Source of the DNA: Neisseria sp. oral taxon 014 str. F0314
GTDB taxonomy: Bacteria; Pseudomonadota; Gammaproteobacteria; Burkholderiales; Neisseriaceae
Reading direction: 5' to 3'
Assembly (NCBI RefSeq): GCF_005886145.1
Contig: NZ_CP040504.1
Coordinates: 1,426,001-1,490,000, forward strand
Length of the DNA: 64,000 bases
Each line of letters opens with the position of its first letter. The stretch's first letter is position 1. The notes beneath the pieces are model-generated. The model was not told where the DNA came from, did not search any database, and worked only from the letters and a program-made list of their open reading frames with translations. Positions 29,000 to 36,976 of the stretch are shown piece after piece. Position numbers and translations under genes: made by a program.

Positions 29000-29617
29000 A
29001 TGGGAAATCAGGAAAAATCGGAACTGCGCCGCCGCCTGCACCGCGCCCGCGCGCAGTTGGCCGGAGACGAGCGGGCCGCCGCCGAACGCGAAATCGGCCG
29101 CCTGCTCAAACGGCGCATCAAACGCGGCTGCAGAATCGGCGTGTATTGGCCGATGGGCAGCGAGCTGCGGCTGGACGGTTTTGTCCGCGCGGCGCAAAAA
29201 CGCGGGGCTAAACTGTATCTGCCTTATATCGAACCGCGTTCGCGGCGGATGTGGTTTACGCCCTATCCTGCCGACGGAGTGAAACAGGAACGCAAGCGCG
29301 GCAGGGCGAAGTTGCATGTGCCGCAGTTTGCGGGGCGCAAAATCCGCGTGCACGGTTTATCTATATTATTGGTTCCGATTGTCGGCATCGACCGCGAAGG
29401 CTACCGCTTGGGACAGGCGGGCGGTTATTATGATGCGACGCTCTCGGCGATGAAATACCGTTTGCAGGCAAAAACCATAGGCGTGGGCTTCGCCTGCCAA
29501 CTGGTTGACAGGCTGCCGCACGAAGCGCACGATGTCCCGCTGGACGGTTTCGTTTCGGAACGGGGCGCATTGGCGTTCCGGCGTTTCAGACGGCCTGTCC
29601 GCAGGAGGACATCATGA
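29000..29617 (+). CDS. fthC: 5-formyltetrahydrofolate cyclo-ligase
   Basis: 205 residues. It converts 5-formyl-THF to 5,10-methenyl-THF using ATP. Family blocks: KSELRRRLHRARAQL at the N-terminus, GVYWPMGSELRLD, LPYIEPRSRRMWF, and the C-terminal nucleotide site VPIVGIDREGYRLGQAGGYYDATL. An uptake sequence touches the start codon, and a second is translated near the C-terminus (FRRFRRPVRRR), so the tail is probably DUS-derived and dispensable. A TATAAT box (28961-28966) lies upstream. The stop overlaps the next gene by 4 bases. Confidence 0.93.
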   Translation: MGNQEKSELRRRLHRARAQLAGDERAAAEREIGRLLKRRIKRGCRIGVYWPMGSELRLDGFVRAAQKRGAKLYLPYIEPRSRRMWFTPYPADGVKQERKRGRAKLHVPQFAGRKIRVHGLSILLVPIVGIDREGYRLGQAGGYYDATLSAMKYRLQAKTIGVGFACQLVDRLPHEAHDVPLDGFVSERGALAFRRFRRPVRRRTS

Positions 29618-30204
29618 CCGGATTCAACGACAAACCCACCCTCTCTTTCAACCGCGTCCGCCTCGAACCGCTGACGCTGCAACATGAAGACGGCCTGCGC
29701 GAAGCCGTGTGCGACGGCAGGCTGTGGGAGCTGGCGGTTACCTCCGCCCCCGCGCCCGACCAAGTGGCGGCGTATATTCAGACGGCCTCGGCCACGCGCA
29801 CGGCGTTTGCCGTTATCGACGAGCGCAGCGGCAAAGTGGTCGGCTCGACCAGCCTGTACCACATCGACGAAGCCGTCCCGCGCGTGGAAATCGGATTCAC
29901 ATGGTATGCGCAATCCGTACAGCGCACGCACGTCAATACGAGCTGTAAGCTGATGTTGCTGACTTATGCGTTTGAAACGCTGGGTTGCGTCTGCGTGGGC
30001 TGGCGCACCGATATTCTGAACACGGCGTCGCAACGCGCCATCGAACGGCTGGGCGCGCAAAAAGACGGCATCCTGCGCCGCCACCAAATCCGCAAAGACG
30101 GCAGCGTGCGCGATACGGTGATGTACAGTATGCTGCGCGAAGAGTGGCCGGCGGCGCAGGCGGCTTTGCGCAAGCGGCTGGAACAGGGGACGGAAGCCCG
30201 ATAA
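29614..30204 (+). CDS. GNAT-family acetyltransferase (RimJ/RimL type)
   Basis: 196 residues. The RimJ/RimL-like pattern: RVRLEPLTLQHEDGLREAVCD at the N-terminus, FAVIDERSGKVVGSTSLYHIDEAVPRVEIGFTW, then the acetyl-CoA region NTSCKLMLLTYAFETLGCVCVGWRTDILNTASQRAIERLGAQKDGILRRHQIRKDGSVRDTVMYSML. It would move acetyl from acetyl-CoA to an amine; the substrate is unknown. The start overlaps fthC by 4 bases (ATGA) with GGAGG just upstream, so translation is coupled. A DUS is translated in frame (IQTAS). Confidence 0.88.
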   Translation: MTGFNDKPTLSFNRVRLEPLTLQHEDGLREAVCDGRLWELAVTSAPAPDQVAAYIQTASATRTAFAVIDERSGKVVGSTSLYHIDEAVPRVEIGFTWYAQSVQRTHVNTSCKLMLLTYAFETLGCVCVGWRTDILNTASQRAIERLGAQKDGILRRHQIRKDGSVRDTVMYSMLREEWPAAQAALRKRLEQGTEAR

Positions 30205-30205
30205 A

Positions 30206-30238
30206 CAAAGGCCGTCTGAACATTTCAGACGGCCTTTG
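30206..30238. terminator. DUS hairpin after the acetyltransferase gene
   Basis: 15-bp inverted uptake pair with a very short loop, starting next to the stop codon, followed by T-rich sequence. Confidence 0.85.
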
Positions 30239-30400
30239 CTTTTACAATCGACTGTAAAGCGCAAACAAAGTCTTTGCATTCCGCCAAAAAATCCTCTAAA
30301 TTCTGTAATATCCTGTTGTCAGCCGACGCGCATACAACGGAGGAATGAAAATAAATAACCACAAAGGCTGAAAGACAGCCTGATATTTAGGAGTATAACC

Positions 30401-31873
30401 ATGACTGAAGCAACAGACGTCATCTTGGTTGGCGGAGGTATTATGAGCGCCACTTTAGGCGTTCTTCTGAAAGAACTCGAACCCTCGTGGGAAATCGTCC
30501 TGATCGAGAGACTGGACGAAATCGCACAAGAATCTTCCAATCCGTGGAACAACGCGGGCACGGGGCATTCGGCCTTGTGCGAACTGAACTACGCGCCGCT
30601 GGGTGCCGACGGCAAAGTCCATCCAGAACGCGCGCTCAACATTGCCGAACAATTCCAACTCAGCCGCCAGTTTTGGGCGTCGCTGGTCAGCGAAGGCAAG
30701 CTGGCGGACAACTCGTTCATCAACACCGTTCCCCATATGTCGCTGGTCATGTGCCAAGACCATTGCGACTATCTGCAAAAACGCTTCGACGCGTTCCGCA
30801 GCCAAAAGCTGTTTGAAAAAATGGAATTTTCCACCGACCGCGCCCGAATCGGCGAATGGGCGCCGCTGACCGTCGAAGGCCGCAGCGAAGGGCAGCCGCT
30901 GGCCGCCACCTACGCCGCCGAAGGAACGGACGTCGATTTCGGCAACCTGACCCGACAGATGGTGAAATACCTGAAATCCAAAGGTGTGAAACTCAAATGC
31001 GGCCTGCACGTCGAAAGCGTGGACCGCGAATCCGACGGCGCATGGGCCGTCAAAACCACCGCTACCAGCGACCCCAAACAACGCCTGACGCTGCGCAGCC
31101 GCTTCGTTTTTTTGGGTGCGGGCGGCGGCGCACTGACGCTGTTGCAGAAATCGGGCATACCCGAAGGCAGGGGCTACGGCGGCTTTCCGGTGTCGGGGCT
31201 GTTTTTCCGCAACCACAACCCCGAAACCGCGCAACGCCACAACGCCAAAGTATACGGACAGGCTTCGGTGGGCGCGCCGCCGATGTCGGTTCCCCACCTC
31301 GACACGCGCCATGTGGACGGACAGCGTTACCTGATGTTCGGCCCCTACGCCGGCTTCAAACCGAACTTCCTGAAACAGGGTTCGCTGATGGATTTGCCGC
31401 AATCCATCCACCTGCACAACATCTACCCGATGCTGCGCGCGGGCTGGGACAATATGCCGCTGACCAAATACCTCTTCGGCGAACTGCGCAAAACCAAGGA
31501 AGAGCGGCTCGCGTCGCTGCTGGAATACTATCCGCAGGCCGATCCCGACGACTGGGAACTGATTACCGCCGGCCAGCGCGTGCAGGTGATTAAGAAAGAT
31601 TCGGAAAAAGGCGGCGTGTTGCAGTTCGGTACGGAACTGGTCACCCACGCCGACGGTTCGCTGGCCGCCCTGCTGGGTGCGTCGCCGGGCGCGTCCACCG
31701 CCGTGCCGCTGATGATACGGCTGCTGCACGAATGCTTCCCGAAACGCGCCGCATCGTGGCAGAGCCGCCTGAAAGATCTGGTGCCGGGCTACGGGGTCAA
31801 ACTCAACGACAACCCCGATCTGGCCGAGGAAATCCTCAGCCATACGGCGAAAGTGCTGGGCATCCACCATTAA
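30401..31873 (+). CDS. mqo: Malate:quinone oxidoreductase
   Basis: 490 residues. It is an FAD enzyme on the inner face of the membrane that oxidises malate to oxaloacetate and passes electrons to quinone, replacing NAD malate dehydrogenase in Neisseria. The dinucleotide motif is VILVGGGIMSATLGVLLKELEP; then SSNPWNNAGTGHSALCELNYAP, GAGGGALTLLQKSGIPEGRGYGGFPVSGLF, YLMFGPYAGFKPNFLKQGS, and the C-terminal LLGASPGASTAVPLMIRLL. GGAG lies 8 nt before the ATG. Transcription is monocistronic, ended by a DUS hairpin. It feeds the same quinone pool as the Nuo complex. Confidence 0.97.
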   Translation: MTEATDVILVGGGIMSATLGVLLKELEPSWEIVLIERLDEIAQESSNPWNNAGTGHSALCELNYAPLGADGKVHPERALNIAEQFQLSRQFWASLVSEGKLADNSFINTVPHMSLVMCQDHCDYLQKRFDAFRSQKLFEKMEFSTDRARIGEWAPLTVEGRSEGQPLAATYAAEGTDVDFGNLTRQMVKYLKSKGVKLKCGLHVESVDRESDGAWAVKTTATSDPKQRLTLRSRFVFLGAGGGALTLLQKSGIPEGRGYGGFPVSGLFFRNHNPETAQRHNAKVYGQASVGAPPMSVPHLDTRHVDGQRYLMFGPYAGFKPNFLKQGSLMDLPQSIHLHNIYPMLRAGWDNMPLTKYLFGELRKTKEERLASLLEYYPQADPDDWELITAGQRVQVIKKDSEKGGVLQFGTELVTHADGSLAALLGASPGASTAVPLMIRLLHECFPKRAASWQSRLKDLVPGYGVKLNDNPDLAEEILSHTAKVLGIHH

Positions 31874-31892
31874 GGGATTGCCCTGCCAAACG

Positions 31893-31925
31893 CAAAGGCC
31901 GTCTGAAATGTTCAGACGGCCTTTG
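31893..31925. terminator. DUS hairpin after mqo
   Basis: 15-bp inverted uptake pair (31893-31907 and 31911-31925), then TTTTTG. Confidence 0.85.
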
Positions 31926-32106
31926 TTTTTGTTATCGGTATCGGGTTGGAGGGGACGCCGGCCCGACTTGTTATTTCAGAAATTTAATTTCGATAGATTT
32001 TCCATTAAGATTTAAAATTCATTAAATTATAACAAAACAAGTTTTATTAGGTTAAATTAAGATTAATCATGAACTTTATTTTAGTTAAAAATGTCATAGT
32101 TGCGTA

Positions 32107-32115
32107 TGATTATCA
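32107..32115. promoter_or_regulatory. Fur-box-like site upstream of the GG-leader peptide gene
   Basis: TGATTATCA is the reverse complement of the Fur-box centre TGATAATCA; over 19 bases the match is about 13. It is 104 bases before the start codon in an AT-rich 290-base stretch (31926-32218) that otherwise holds no gene. Confidence 0.4.
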
Positions 32116-32218
32116 ATACGTTTACTAAGCGTAAATAAGATATTCATGCTTTTAACTATGCTTATAGTTATATAAATATAAGCATTCAACCTTAAATTGA
32201 TTGAACAAGGAGTAACTT

Positions 32219-32416
32219 ATGAAAGAATTAAATAATTACGAAATTGAATTGGTTGCAGGCGGCGTAGATTGGGGCGAAGTCGGTGCCGGACTCGGAGCCG
32301 TTGGACTCGGTGTGGCTATCGCAGCTACACCAGTAGGCTGGTTGGGCGCCTTAGGTGCAGCAGCATTTGCTGGTGCTGGCGGATATGGTATAGGTGATGG
32401 TCTATTCAATAAATAA
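32219..32416 (+). CDS. Double-glycine-leader microcin/bacteriocin-like peptide precursor
   Basis: 65 residues. The leader MKELNNYEIELVAGG has every hallmark of a GG leader counted back from the cut: Gly at -1 and -2, Val at -4, Ile at -7, Glu at -8, Leu at -12. Cutting by a peptidase-containing ABC transporter would release a 50-residue peptide rich in Gly and Ala (VDWGEVGAGLGAVGLGVAI... GYGIGDGLFNK) with several GxxxG motifs, as in class II microcins and class IIb bacteriocins that insert into membranes. AGGAG stands 6 nt before the ATG. The surrounding DNA is AT-rich. No exporter gene is in the window, so export must rely on one elsewhere. A small membrane protein gene follows. Confidence 0.8.
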   Translation: MKELNNYEIELVAGGVDWGEVGAGLGAVGLGVAIAATPVGWLGALGAAAFAGAGGYGIGDGLFNK

Positions 32417-32527
32417 CCTTAACCTAAAAAACAAGGAATCGGTAAATAAATCAATTCTCATCACCAAATGTTAATGGGATTGGAATTATTTTTTACTGAT
32501 TCCTTCCTTAAAACAGAAAGATTCCAT

Positions 32528-32698
32528 ATGTCAATTTACTTGTATATTCTAATTTTTATTATCTTTCTTGCTCTTGTTATAACCGTCGGCATCCATAAAA
32601 AATGGATTAAAACCGAACAACAAACCAACAAACGTATTTTTTGGATAGGCATCGGAATCGCCCTTGCCTCAAGCGTTTTTGCCGCCATTGTCGGCTAA
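32528..32698 (+). CDS. Small two-helix membrane protein, candidate immunity protein
   Basis: 56 residues from the ATG at 32528: MSIYLYILIFIIFLALVITVGI (helix 1), a charged loop HKKWIKTEQQTNKR, then IFWIGIGIALASSVFAAIVG (helix 2). Size, topology and its place 111 bases after the GG-leader peptide gene fit an immunity protein that guards the producer membrane. The frame is open 20 codons further up (32468), but only the 32528 start has a purine-rich AGAAAG and gives a clean membrane protein. The function is inferred from context only. Confidence 0.6.
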   Translation: MSIYLYILIFIIFLALVITVGIHKKWIKTEQQTNKRIFWIGIGIALASSVFAAIVG

Positions 32699-32749
32699 AT
32701 CCCGTCAATTTCTCCCCACGCACGCACCTTACAAACAACTTAATCAATC

Positions 32750-32900
32750 CAGCTGGTAGGTCGGGGATTCATGTTCGATGTTCCCTTCTCCGCTGCCCCT
32801 CCCACGCAGGCGACAATCTGGAACGTAAAATTTAAGAAACCTTTTCTCCTGACAGATTTCTGTATGGACAAGTTTGGATTCTCGCCTGCGCGGGAATGAC
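32750..32900. repeat. Degenerate NIME
   Basis: The left dRS3 has decayed (near 32800-32818); the core AACGTAAAATTTAAGAAACCTTT is recognisable; the right dRS3 (32878-32897) has one change. Upstream GTAGGTCGGGGATTCATG (32756-32773) is a damaged copy of the CGGGCAT palindrome family. Confidence 0.75.
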
Positions 32901-32957
32901 AGATTGAGGATTTACGGGTAACTGGGCGACGGGCCGGATTTCGTTCTATGTAAGTCG

Positions 32958-32989
32958 AGGCCGTCTGAAAATAAAATTTCAGACGGCCT
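32958..32989. terminator. DUS hairpin overlapping the end of waaA
   Basis: Inverted uptake pair (32958-32970 and 32977-32989). The right arm lies inside the waaA reading frame and provides its TGA stop. Confidence 0.75.
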
Positions 32990-34244
32990 GCACCGCTTTG
33001 GCGACTTCCTGCGCCATACGGCTGCTCGCGCCGCGGTGCTGCGCCACGAACGCCTGCGCCTGGGCGGCAAATCGGGCGCGCAGGCTGTCGTCCGAGAGCC
33101 ATGTTTCCACCGTCTGCCGCCACTCGTCCGCGCTGCCGACCTGCACCGCCGCGCCCGCTTTCAGCGCGTTTTCGCAGGCGGAAGAAAAATTGTAGGTGGA
33201 GAAGCCGAACACGGTGGGCACGCCGCAGGCTATCGGTTCGATGATGTTTTGGCAGCCGGTGTCGACCAGGCTGCCGCCGACGAAGGCCGCGCTGCCGGTC
33301 AGGTAATACGCGAACAGTTCGCCCATGCTGTCGCCTATCCACACCTGCGTCTGCGGCGAAACCATCGCATTGTCGCTGCGCTTTTGCACGCGGAAGCCGA
33401 GCGACCGCGCCGTATCATAGGCCGTCTGAAACCGCTCCGGATGGCGCGGCACGACGACCAGCAGCGCATCGCCGCGGTATTGCCGCCAAGCCGACAGCAG
33501 CAGCTCGGTTTCGTCTTCGCCCCGATAGAACCGCGTGCTGGCGCACACCGCCACCGGCCGCCTGCCGATGCGTTCGGCAAAACCGGCCGCCAGCGCGCGC
33601 ATTTTGTCGGGCGGGGAAATATCGTATTTGGTGTTGCCGCAGACGTGCACGTTGGACGCGCCGATCAGGTGCAGCCGTTCGGCATCGGCCGCGGTTTGCG
33701 CGAAACAGCCGCTCAGGGTCTGCATCGCCGGTTCGACCAGCCCGCGCACTTTCAGGTAGCCGCGCTGCGATTTTTCCGACAGCCGCGCGTTGGCAAGGAA
33801 CAGCGGCACGCCTTCTTCGGCGCAGCCGTGCATCAGGTTGGGCCAGATTTCCGTTTCCATCAGCACGCCGAACAGCGGGTTGTGTTCGCGCAGAAACTGC
33901 CGCACCCATTCGGGACGGTCATAGGGCAGATAACGGCATTGTGCGTCGGGGAACAGTTCCTGCGCGGCGGCGCGGCCGGTCGGCGTCATCTGCGTCAGCA
34001 GCAGCGGCGCGTCGGGGAAATGCCGGCGCAGTGCTTCCGCCAAGGGCTGCGCGGCGCGGGTTTCGCCCACGGAAACGGCGTGTATCCACACGGGGCGCTG
34101 CACGGGGTCGGACAAAGGTTCGCCGAAACGCTCGCCCCAGTTTTCCAGATAGGCGGGCGACTTGCGTCCGCGCTTTTTCAGATAGCGGCGGATGAGCGGC
34201 GGTGCAAACTGCCAGAGTCGGGTGTAGAACCAGCGGTTTATCAT
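32979..34244 (-). CDS. waaA: 3-deoxy-D-manno-octulosonic acid transferase
   Basis: 421 residues of glycosyltransferase family 30. It adds Kdo to lipid IVA at the inner membrane in lipooligosaccharide synthesis. An N-terminal hydrophobic/basic anchor (RWFYTRLWQFAPPLIRRYLKKRGRKS) is followed by the WIHAVSVGETRAAQPLAEAL acceptor site with the catalytic Glu, then LMETEIWPNL, ANARLSEKSQRGY, and the nucleotide-sugar half GGSLVDTGCQNIIEPIACGVPTVFGFSTYNF. The stop codon is given by an uptake sequence. Divergent genes are not present; the FUSC gene ends upstream. Confidence 0.96.
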   Translation of the reverse strand: MINRWFYTRLWQFAPPLIRRYLKKRGRKSPAYLENWGERFGEPLSDPVQRPVWIHAVSVGETRAAQPLAEALRRHFPDAPLLLTQMTPTGRAAAQELFPDAQCRYLPYDRPEWVRQFLREHNPLFGVLMETEIWPNLMHGCAEEGVPLFLANARLSEKSQRGYLKVRGLVEPAMQTLSGCFAQTAADAERLHLIGASNVHVCGNTKYDISPPDKMRALAAGFAERIGRRPVAVCASTRFYRGEDETELLLSAWRQYRGDALLVVVPRHPERFQTAYDTARSLGFRVQKRSDNAMVSPQTQVWIGDSMGELFAYYLTGSAAFVGGSLVDTGCQNIIEPIACGVPTVFGFSTYNFSSACENALKAGAAVQVGSADEWRQTVETWLSDDSLRARFAAQAQAFVAQHRGASSRMAQEVAKAVQAV

Positions 34245-34326
34245 GGATTTGGATTTGCCCGGAAAATGTAGGAAATGCCCATTCTAACGGATTTGCGGGG
34301 GATTGGGGAGGACGGGGCCGCTCGGA

Positions 34327-34362
34327 GGGGCCGTCTGAAAACCGGTTTTTTCAGACGGCCCC
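34327..34362. terminator. DUS hairpin after the FUSC-family gene
   Basis: 15-bp inverted repeat GGGGCCGTCTGAAAA and its complement; the right arm overlaps the last codons of the upstream gene. Confidence 0.8.
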
Positions 34363-35496
34363 ATCGTCCGAAACATTCGCCCTGCGTTCCATCAGGTGCG
34401 CCCTGAGCCGTTGCAGCTCCCGCGTGTCCAGCCAGCGGCGGCGGGTGCGCTGGAGCAGGATGGCCAGCGCGGCCACCTCCATACGCATGTTGGTACCCAG
34501 CCATAAGAAGCCCTGCCACTCAAACGGCAGATGCTGCGCCAGCCGTCCCAGCCGCGGATTGATGTCGGTATCGATGCGCACGCGCCGCGCGTAATGGCCT
34601 TTGAGCAGGCGGGCGGTCAGGCGCAGGTCGCGCTGCAAACGCTGGAAATGGCTGTCGAGCAGGCTGCGCTCTTCCGCACTCACGTCGGGCGGCGACAGTT
34701 TGGCGGCGGTGTTCAGCAGCAGCTCGGTGCTGTTGACGATTTTGCGGTGGGCGTGCTGCATGGCCTCCATCATGGCGGGGCTGATGTGGCTTTCGCCCGA
34801 TGTGGCGGCAAGGTGGCTGCGGCTTTTGACCATGCGGGCGTTGATTTGGCGCATTTTGATCATGTTCTGCTCCAGCCGCTCGCGGGTCATGCGCCTGCCA
34901 TTGCCAACTTCGGCAAGGATGCGGCTGCATGCGGTCAGATTGTCGGCCAGCATGAACCGCCACATCAGGGTGGATTTCAGCGGCAGCAGCTTGGCGGCGC
35001 CGATGGCGATGACTGCGCCGAGCAGCACGTTGAACGCGCGCATCAGGCCGCTGTCGAGCCATTCCGTGCCGTTGTCGCCGATAAGCATACACATGGTCAG
35101 CCCCGCCAACATCGGGATATAGCCGTTTTTGCCCACCGCCGCCCAGCCCGCCGCCGCACTCGCCGCGCCGACGGTCAGGTAAAACGGAAGCCCGCCGTGG
35201 AAATAATGCTGGTTCAGCCACAATACGGCCAACCCCGCGCCCAACCCGATAACCGTGCCGAGCATACGTTCCACCGCTTTGGAGTAAATCGCGCCCTGAA
35301 ACTGCAACATGCCCAGCACGACGAACACGGTCATGCCTATCCATTCGCCGTGTTTCAGGTGGAACACGCGCGCCACCGCCGTGGCGAACAGCACCGCCAT
35401 CCCCAGCCGGACGGCGTGTATCAGCCGGCTGTAACGGTAGCGTTCGTAGGCGTTGAGCCAGCGTTCGGCAAACGGGATGTGCAGGGGGAGTTTCAT
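34351..35496 (-). CDS. FUSC/YccS-like inner-membrane protein
   Basis: 381 residues. After a short N-terminus, six or so helices occur between residues 25 and 170 (AVRLGMAVLFATAVARVF, WIGMTVFVVLGMLQF, TVIGLGAGLAVLWL, FYLTVGAASAAAGWAAV, MLAGLTMCMLIG, AFNVLLGAVIAIGAAKLLPL), including the FUSC signature FQGAIYSKAVERMLGTVIGLGAG. A cytosolic helical domain (about 180-360) is rich in Arg/Gln. Relatives include the aromatic-acid exporter subunit AaeB and YccS. The substrate is unknown; no membrane-fusion partner gene adjoins it. Confidence 0.85.
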   Translation of the reverse strand: MKLPLHIPFAERWLNAYERYRYSRLIHAVRLGMAVLFATAVARVFHLKHGEWIGMTVFVVLGMLQFQGAIYSKAVERMLGTVIGLGAGLAVLWLNQHYFHGGLPFYLTVGAASAAAGWAAVGKNGYIPMLAGLTMCMLIGDNGTEWLDSGLMRAFNVLLGAVIAIGAAKLLPLKSTLMWRFMLADNLTACSRILAEVGNGRRMTRERLEQNMIKMRQINARMVKSRSHLAATSGESHISPAMMEAMQHAHRKIVNSTELLLNTAAKLSPPDVSAEERSLLDSHFQRLQRDLRLTARLLKGHYARRVRIDTDINPRLGRLAQHLPFEWQGFLWLGTNMRMEVAALAILLQRTRRRWLDTRELQRLRAHLMERRANVSDDGAV

Positions 35497-35590
35497 GGCG
35501 GGGCGGGGATAAAGTCCAAAGGGCGCGGCTTTTGCGCAAAGGCCGCTATATTAAACCGAAACGGGAAAATTTTATACGGCGGCGGGCAGC

Positions 35591-35625
35591 GCAGGCCGTC
35601 TGAAAAGAGTGTTCAGACGGCCTGC
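35591..35625. terminator. DUS hairpin after the photolyase gene
   Basis: 14-bp inverted uptake pair (35591-35604 and 35612-35625), 16 nt past the stop on the minus strand. Confidence 0.8.
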
Positions 35626-35641
35626 CGCATGTTCGCACATC

Positions 35642-36976
35642 CTAGCGGAACAAGGCCGCATACGCCCTGCCCTGCCGCGCGCAATCCGCCATCGGCGGCG
35701 GATAACCGTGCGTGTCCACGCTGGCGCGGGCCAGCCACGGGGCATGGACGACGTCTTTGGGCAGGTGCGCCAGTTCGGGAACATAGCGGCGGATGAACGT
35801 GCCGTCGGGATCGAGCTGCTGCGCCTGCAACACCGGATTGGCGGCGCCTCCGGAAAACAGGCCGAACACGCCTGCCGCCTCCTGCCAGTTGCCGGTATTG
35901 GAAGCGGGGTCGTAATCGGTCAGACAGCGCGCGAACCAAGCCGCGCCGTGCCGCCAGTCTGCCAGCAGTATCCGGCACAAAAACGCGGCGGCGGCGGCGC
36001 GCAACGCCGGATGCAGCCAGCCGGTGGCATTCAGGCTGCGCATGGCGGCATCTATCAGCGGGAAACCGGTCTGCCCCTGCTGCCAGCGCGACAGAACGTC
36101 TTGGCCGCCCGGCCATTTTATCCCGCGGTATTCGGGGCGGAGGGCTTCGGCGGCGGCTTCGGGACGGTGGAACATGACCTGTCGGAAGAAATCGCGGCGG
36201 ACAAGATTGTCCAGCCATTGCGCCGCGCCCCGTTTTGCTGCTGCCTGCGCCAGTTCGCGCGGCGAGAGGCAGCCGGCGGCAAGATAGGCGCCGACCCTGC
36301 CCGTGCCTTTTTTGGCGGGGAATCCGCTCATGAGCGGATAGTTGCCGATGTCGGCGGCAAACCGCGCCCACTGCCGTCGCCCCGCCGCCTCGCCGCCCTG
36401 CTGCCGCCACTCTTGCGGTGCGGTTTCGGGCAGTGCCGGAAACGGCGGCAGGATTCCGAAGGCCGTCTGAAAACCGACGGGCAGGCTTTCAGACGGCCTT
36501 CGGTCTGCAAAACGCTGCGCAAAAGCCCGCAGCCACGCCTGCCGGTACGGCGCAAATTCAAAATACGGCCGGCCGTGTTCATCCATTATCTCCGCTCTGG
36601 CAAACGCCGCGCCGTCGTTGACGCGCTCAAACGCGCGGCCTTGCGCGTCCAGCACCCGCCAAATCCGGTTGTCGCGCGCGGTTTCGTCGGCCATACAGCC
36701 TTCGTCGGCCACCACCACCGCCGCGTCCAGCTCGGCGGCAAGCCGCGGAATATCGGTTTCGGCCTCCTGCGCGACAAACAGCGGAATGCCCCGTTCAGCC
36801 AGCGCACGGTGCAATTCTGCCGCCGAAGCCCGCAGAAATGCCGCCTGCCGCGGGTTGGCCGCATCCGCCGCAAACACGCCCGCCACCGGCAGCCCGCGCC
36901 GCACGGCGGCGGCTAAGGCGGCATTGTCGGTAAGGCGGAGGTTGCGGCGGAACCAAACGAGTGTGTTTTTTTGCAT
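35642..36976 (-). CDS. phrB: Deoxyribodipyrimidine photolyase
   Basis: 444 residues. It repairs UV pyrimidine dimers with light, using FAD and an antenna pigment. The N-terminal antenna domain begins MQKNTLVWFRRNLRLTDNAALAAAV. The FAD-binding C-terminal half carries TGRVGAYLAAGCLSPRELAQA, WLDNLVRRDFFRQVMFHRPE, WQQGQTGFPLIDAAMRSLNATGWLHPALRAAAAAFLC and ASNTGNWQEAAG (usually YYQW/TGDWQ-like). I chose the ATG at 36976; the frame is open 29 codons above it but reads non-family sequence across an uptake sequence. Two uptake sequences are translated inside the gene near 36465-36500. Confidence 0.93.
   Translation of the reverse strand: MQKNTLVWFRRNLRLTDNAALAAAVRRGLPVAGVFAADAANPRQAAFLRASAAELHRALAERGIPLFVAQEAETDIPRLAAELDAAVVVADEGCMADETARDNRIWRVLDAQGRAFERVNDGAAFARAEIMDEHGRPYFEFAPYRQAWLRAFAQRFADRRPSESLPVGFQTAFGILPPFPALPETAPQEWRQQGGEAAGRRQWARFAADIGNYPLMSGFPAKKGTGRVGAYLAAGCLSPRELAQAAAKRGAAQWLDNLVRRDFFRQVMFHRPEAAAEALRPEYRGIKWPGGQDVLSRWQQGQTGFPLIDAAMRSLNATGWLHPALRAAAAAFLCRILLADWRHGAAWFARCLTDYDPASNTGNWQEAAGVFGLFSGGAANPVLQAQQLDPDGTFIRRYVPELAHLPKDVVHAPWLARASVDTHGYPPPMADCARQGRAYAALFR

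Follow-up and report, generated by a model that had tools for sequence, protein, structure and literature searches.

The window, as the whole analyzed stretch of DNA is called here, comprises 64,000 nucleotides (positions 1426001 to 1490000) of a Neisseria genome of 2.50 Mb assembled in a single contig. Within it, a double-glycine (GG) peptide precursor gene is followed on the same strand by a gene for a small hydrophobic protein, and the pair lies in an AT-rich island between a gene that we take to be mqo-like (30401 to 31873) and, on the opposite strand, a presumably waaA-like gene (Table 1). The GC content of positions 31961 to 32730 was 35.5% versus 53.7% in the whole window, though the peptide ORF alone reached 50%; both this island and its bounding terminator with DUS repeats, which had been proposed from the sequence alone, were recovered, the latter as an inverted-DUS hairpin. 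Terminator-like sites numbered two, compared to a shuffle mean of 1.4. The element AGGCCGTCTGAA, which we take to be the DUS repeat of Neisseria, was counted in 31 copies on one strand; together with named Neisseria relatives of the peptide, it points to this genus. The proposed decayed NIME may correspond to a stretch spotted by eye near 32880, which resembles what we assume to be the dRS3 motif. A promoter was not located, with three sigma-70-like sites in positions 31850 to 33000 compared to a shuffle mean of 2.9, and no Rfam match at the gathering score was obtained in positions 31800 to 33000. A comparison with empty sites gave no result, since the 1.5 kb behind 27 further mqo sites in the genus (five about 50% identical overall, one followed by just 65 bp of sequence) contained neither waaA nor the pair.

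Table 1. Features of the peptide locus (window positions) and related loci elsewhere in the genome (contig positions)
Feature	Position	Strand	Properties
Inverted-DUS terminator-like hairpin, 3' of mqo-like gene	31892..31926	+	16-pair stem, 8 GC pairs, T tail
AT-rich upstream region (251 nt 5' of the peptide)	31968..32218	+	21.5% GC; includes Shine-Dalgarno AAGGAG at 32207-32212
Double-glycine precursor ORF, 65 aa	32219..32416	+	reads MKELNNYEIELVAGG followed by VDWGEVGAGLGAVGLGVAIAATPVGWLGALGAAAFAGAGGYGIGDGLFNK; Shine-Dalgarno AAGGAG at 32207-32212
Double-glycine leader, 15 aa	32219..32263	+	MKELNNYEIELVAGG; E = 6.2e-7 in the leave-one-out profile; aligned with further leaders of Neisseria in A6
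Core, 50 aa	32264..32416 (stop included)	+	pI 4.05, 30% Gly, 22% Ala, without Cys; helical hairpin predicted; family alignment A5
RNA hairpin between peptide and partner genes	32433..32505	+	-28.2 kcal/mol, z -4.24, without U tail
Candidate immunity protein, 56 aa	32528..32698	+	hydrophobic segments 6-22 and 40-56; predicted charge about +3.6
C39 ABC exporter, 700 aa	contig 1247361-1249463		C39, ABC-membrane and ABC-ATPase domains above Pfam cut-off
GG-leader loci of the genome	contig 273-274, 1075, 1213, 1252, 1458, 1870, 1876, 2170 kb		

The leader match exceeds chance. A leader pattern, written after the peptide had been seen, fitted a single window ORF and had no match in 30 dinucleotide-shuffled windows or 2000 shuffled islands. 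In a leave-one-out profile of 11 other leaders, with the window peptide excluded, the runner-up among the 708 window ORFs of at least 25 aa reached only E = 1.5. Together with full-length precursor relatives at 95% and 86% identity, the ORF and its profile score confirm the proposed precursor of 65 residues, and the core is Gly/Ala-rich, as had been described. The acidic core has a predicted mass of 4.57 kDa and ends in GYGIGDGLFNK without a serine; inspection by eye found no Ser/Gly-rich C-terminal siderophore motif of class IIb microcins in it. In the AlphaFold2 prediction for the precursor, the leader is helical and the core forms a helical hairpin (helices 18 to 35 and 41 to 63), with a mean pLDDT of 77.6 and a pTM of 0.51 for the best model and mean pLDDT values of 62 to 72 for the remaining four. 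Foldseek comparison of the peptide model with the PDB gave no match at E ≤ 0.001 (the top rows, with E > 2, were not used), and the best profile match among PDB sequences (E 0.99) was rejected.

The gene behind the peptide had been read as encoding a two-helix membrane protein, and two hydrophobic segments are indeed present in its ORF. The start at 32528 is preferred, although the protein could begin in frame at 32468 and would then be longer; the database includes 56- and 57-aa versions. The search with this partner yielded 20 proteins including its own, 16 of them at 71 to 80% identity. Two relatives at 73% identity (P0022 and P0023) are present in 155 and 108 contigs, compared to 10 for the closest peptide cluster, and no peptide as common as partner relatives of this type turned up in the database; this higher abundance of the partner relatives speaks against tight pairing. 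All NCBIfam matches for both the peptide and the partner were below the cut-off.

The two ORFs are separated by 111 nt containing a strong hairpin, the stability of which was equalled or exceeded by 1 of 200 shuffles. Gene overlap is often seen in microcins, and such a gap with a hairpin in place of an overlap counts against reading the pair as a microcin cassette. The hairpin was also considered as a repeat element and rejected, with no second copy in the genome and otherwise three matches of 18 to 36 bases (E 0.2 to 0.7). It may lower the expression of the partner or shield the peptide message.

The profile search, in which the 7993 candidates sharing most words were scored, detected at least 49 family proteins at E ≤ 0.001. 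The named sources include Neisseria weixii, N. iguanae, Noviherbaspirillum, Aestuariibacter, an Alteromonadaceae bacterium, Alteromonas, Pseudoalteromonas, Pseudomonas, and Burkholderia, and family loci were fetched from Aestuariibacter, Rheinheimera, Noviherbaspirillum, and Paraburkholderia. Judged from these sequences, the family is rare and scattered over beta- and gammaproteobacteria. It was found in 2 genomes of an order-wide sample of 399 and in 2 of 46 genomes of the genus, the latter count excluding one mostly-leader match (G006, E 0.0028), which covers only residues 1 to 35, i.e., the leader and a short piece, lies within a GG-peptide array, and was rejected as a family member. The earlier suggestion of a little-described neisserial bacteriocin is fair, but the family extends beyond Neisseria.

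Alignment A5 contains 43 rows, namely, 40 of the 49 proteins and three DNA-derived sequences; nine truncated, short, or poorly covered proteins (P0003-P0005, P0058, P0060, and P0066-P0069) were omitted. Leader Gly14 and then Trp18, Gly24, Pro38, and Ala47 are invariant in it. With the Pfam microcin V profile PF17508 (MccV), the window peptide scored 16.1 bits versus the curated cut-off of 27 bits; 18 of the 43 members matched at E ≤ 0.01 and none exceeded the cut-off, the best being P0065 with 25.6 bits, to which the precomputed database annotation assigns PF17508.8. Among viral contigs, 148 pattern stretches for the peptide and 36 for P0022 were obtained and no relative was confirmed in either set; plasmid records contained no relative of the peptide or of P0022, and phage records gave no match to a composed family query, so there was no sign in these collections of a plasmid or phage carrier.

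A small hydrophobic ORF on the same strand adjoins or overlaps the peptide gene in all six contexts (the window, L008, L015, L016, L017, and L018), in five of them downstream and in one upstream. The strict two-segment test was passed by four contexts, L015 and L016 having one segment each, and by 292 of 30,000 random places, a conservative comparison because this background contains the true loci. BLASTP gave no alignment in four of the five partner pairs tried, which counts against the bacteriocin reading preferred below; the partners of L015 and L016 aligned with E 1e-7. At locus L008 (genome G016), whose peptide agrees with P0040 of N. iguanae in alignment A5, the peptide gene is followed by a two-helix ORF and a decayed exporter piece (2029 to 2235) corresponding to residues 3 to 98 of the exporter of the window genome (56%, with 27 internal residues missing), a link between the pair and exporters of this type. 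The gaps between peptide and partner in L008 (about 20 nt) and L016 (about 44 nt) are too short for a hairpin such as that in the window. With the exporter and adaptor as tblastn queries, no such gene was found in the 16 kb around the peptides of L015 to L018, and the matches in L016 were confined to the ATPase part at 25 to 35% identity. A C39 frame of more than 700 aa was present in all four other named family-carrying genomes that were fetched.

The sequence-only reading had noted no exporter nearby and suggested a transporter encoded elsewhere, which is supported by the single C39 match in the whole genome, approximately 209 kb from the peptide; the refuting outcome named in that reading, a genome lacking any C39 transporter, did not occur, and tblastn of the exporter and adaptor against the window gave no match at E ≤ 1e-3. 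The match belongs to an ABC exporter in which Cys26, His99, and Asp115 occupy the positions expected for the C39 triad (motif assignment by eye). An HlyD-type adaptor gene adjoins it, a gene for an OEP (TolC-type) channel follows 2.2 kb further, so that the export set looks intact, and the neighboring genes encode polysaccharide-export and ABC-2 domains.

The search for other GG-leader genes, which had been proposed along with that for a C39 transporter, was likewise productive. The leader profile (17 positions and 12 rows, 10 of them from the window genome) gave 16 matches at E ≤ 0.01 at eight loci. The further GG precursors include four between the adaptor and channel genes, four near 274 kb, and one at 1.87 Mb. 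With 16 leader matches and one C39 exporter, the exporter is probably common to many GG peptides. Across the genus, leader matches occurred in 11 of 46 genomes, with 25 in G008. Of the 12 genomes in which a C39 frame of about 700 aa is present, 7 had such matches, compared to 4 of the 34 others (Fisher P = 0.003); after removal of the three genomes that had contributed profile rows, the counts were 5 of 10 versus 3 of 33 (P = 0.010). These tests ignore kinship among the genomes and define the frame outside the window genome by open-frame length and a C39 match alone. The counter-cases comprise five of the 12 C39-frame genomes without a leader match, one of them with an internal stop in the frame, and four frame-less genomes with a match. 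C39 domains in frames of about 190 to 260 aa, perhaps stand-alone peptidases like NapP, were also seen in G005, G012, G015, G016, G020, G021, G036, G039, G042, and G043.

Several other GG peptides were recorded as separate observations. In the window genome, a precursor at 1075339 (L101, 1501 to 1668) has a core with ten consecutive histidines and is possibly metal-binding, and two adjacent GG peptides with similar Pro-rich cores are located near 2170 kb (L100, 1170 to 1551). A second Gly/Ala-rich GG peptide of 81 aa near 1942 kb (L108, 1462 to 1707), with a weak leader match (E 1.24), is followed by a 77-aa two-helix ORF (1792 to 2025); this arrangement favors the microcin-like reading given below. 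In G021 (L114, 761 to 1557), an 83-aa two-helix ORF is flanked by two different GG precursors, one of them long and Gly/Ala-rich, approximately 5 kb from a C39 match of that genome. Among 59 peptides, those with a core of at least 45 aa and 35% Gly plus Ala had a two-helix neighbor in three of five cases, compared to 4 of 54 for the others (P = 0.0096), which is a hint only, because the threshold was set post hoc, two peptides share one neighbor, L113 just misses the limits, and L108 was left out by the leader pattern.

On modest balance, and judging from sequence features, we consider that the pair encodes a class II microcin-like bacteriocin with a candidate immunity gene, exported in trans. 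The precursor would be recognized through its GG leader, cleaved after GG, and exported by the distant C39-ABC/HlyD/TolC-type machine, which many GG peptides probably have in common. The core, predicted to form a membrane hairpin, would by analogy with class II microcins damage the inner membrane of sensitive neighbors, probably near relatives, and the two-helix protein would reside in the inner membrane of the producer and serve self-protection. The intergenic hairpin may set the relative amounts of the peptide and partner mRNAs.

Four other explanations were weighed against this reading. The core might instead be an extracellular signal, a pheromone released via the shared C39 machine, with the partner as a sensing part or unrelated. 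Scattered GG peptides served by one exporter would fit this, as would the wider distribution of the partner relatives, and the available text of PMC2784325 brings up a signaling role for the GG peptides of meningococci. We regard it as unlikely, since inspection by eye recognized no sensor kinase or regulator gene among the ORFs of positions 29000 to 36500, homologs are rare in the order, and this long hydrophobic core differs from short pheromones. A self-lytic, bacteriocin-like peptide exported to act on the stationary-phase cells of the producer itself, as described for the gonococcal Naps, is quite unlikely: the genus, the GG motif, and the low-GC island are common to both, but the Naps are cationic, 16 to 36 aa long when mature, and clustered according to the accessible part of PMC11798529, whereas the window core is acidic, 50 aa long, single, and unlinked to its exporter.

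That the pair is a drifting remnant, which was acquired by transfer, has since lost its expression or export, and persists by chance, is improbable. The number of promoter-like sites at chance level and the decayed exporter piece at the N. iguanae-type locus point that way; both ORFs are, however, intact with a good Shine-Dalgarno sequence, the precursor is 86 to 95% identical in two relatives, and the core pattern is kept across genera. The peptide could also be a bacteriocin next to an unrelated small membrane protein, with its immunity determinant elsewhere. The mismatch in distribution, the 111-nt gap with its hairpin, and the partner pairs lacking similarity agree with this, but the recurrence of a small hydrophobic neighbor in every context examined argues against it, and class II microcin immunity proteins are recognized without sequence likeness, as stated in the accessible text of PMC10233263; we therefore consider an unrelated partner very improbable.

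If the preferred bacteriocin reading is extended, a picture of "one pump, many cartridges" can be drawn, which we put forward tentatively and with more doubt than belief. In some Neisseria, one C39 exporter would serve up to a couple of dozen dispersed GG-leader peptides, and exporter-free cassettes of a microcin plus its immunity gene would move between beta- and gammaproteobacteria and work wherever a compatible C39 exporter exists. Gram-negative microcins would then need no adjacent exporter, searches of exporter neighborhoods would miss such cassettes, and Neisseria would gain candidate competition peptides with self-protection genes. Among the papers found, the Neisseria GG peptides tested so far promote self-lysis, as reported in the accessible part of PMC11798529. 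Among open-licence papers, judged by titles and the abstracts shown, none dealt with this peptide family or with exporter-free Neisseria microcin cassettes.

Class II microcins, as characterized in the available text of a review (PMC10233263), have an N-terminal GG/GA cleavage signal, a size of about 5 to 10 kDa, and clustered genes for precursor, immunity, transporter, and adaptor; export proceeds through a C39-domain ABC transporter, an adaptor, and TolC, as in microcin V with CvaC, Cvi, CvaB, CvaA, and TolC. Their immunity proteins are recognized from a nearby gene position, small size, and the presence of membrane helices and not from sequence (PMC10233263), and the missing similarity among the partners agrees with this description. 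The window pair resembles microcin V in that a GG leader precedes a small hydrophobic core, a small membrane protein is encoded alongside, and PF17508 matches weakly, and its genome offers a C39-ABC, adaptor, and TolC-type set. Unlike microcin V, it has an unlinked and probably shared exporter, a core of 4.6 kDa that lies just under the 5-to-10-kDa range and contains no Cys, and a profile score below the Pfam cut-off, and its family occurs outside Enterobacteriaceae; unlike the class IIb (siderophore) microcins, it lacks the C-terminal siderophore motif. The pair would work like a class II microcin, but as it lacks the linkage of that group and stays below the MccV cut-off, it is filed as a microcin-like variant and not as a member.

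The systems compared by description include McbABCI of Moraxella catarrhalis, in which, according to the accessible text of PMC2761928, McbC has activity toward M. catarrhalis strains and the immunity protein McbI has 74 aa. In both, a GG bacteriocin gene precedes a small immunity gene, the two genes being candidates in the window; in McbABCI, however, the exporter genes share the operon, mcbI overlaps mcbC, and four helices are predicted for McbI. The gonococcal Naps, as presented in the available part of PMC11798529, have class II microcin features, promote autolysis, and had no antibacterial activity detected against competitors; they have a pI of 9 to 10.1 and are encoded in the napABC cluster with the C39 peptidase NapP and the FapF-like channel NapF, and napI downstream of the Nap genes was likened to an immunity protein. 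By these described features the window peptide, with no C39 gene nearby, is set apart from them. In N. meningitidis 8013, five candidate GG-peptide genes and two export units were described in the accessible text of PMC2784325, with a bacteriocin or pheromone role proposed. Compared by description, that strain has fewer peptide genes and more export units than the 16 leader matches and one exporter found here, and its accessible description names no immunity partners; in both cases a Neisseria genome combines several GG peptides with C39-ABC export, adaptors, and a TolC-like channel. Scattered GG peptides accompanied by C39 exporters are already published for Neisseria, as the available texts of PMC2784325 and PMC11798529 attest.
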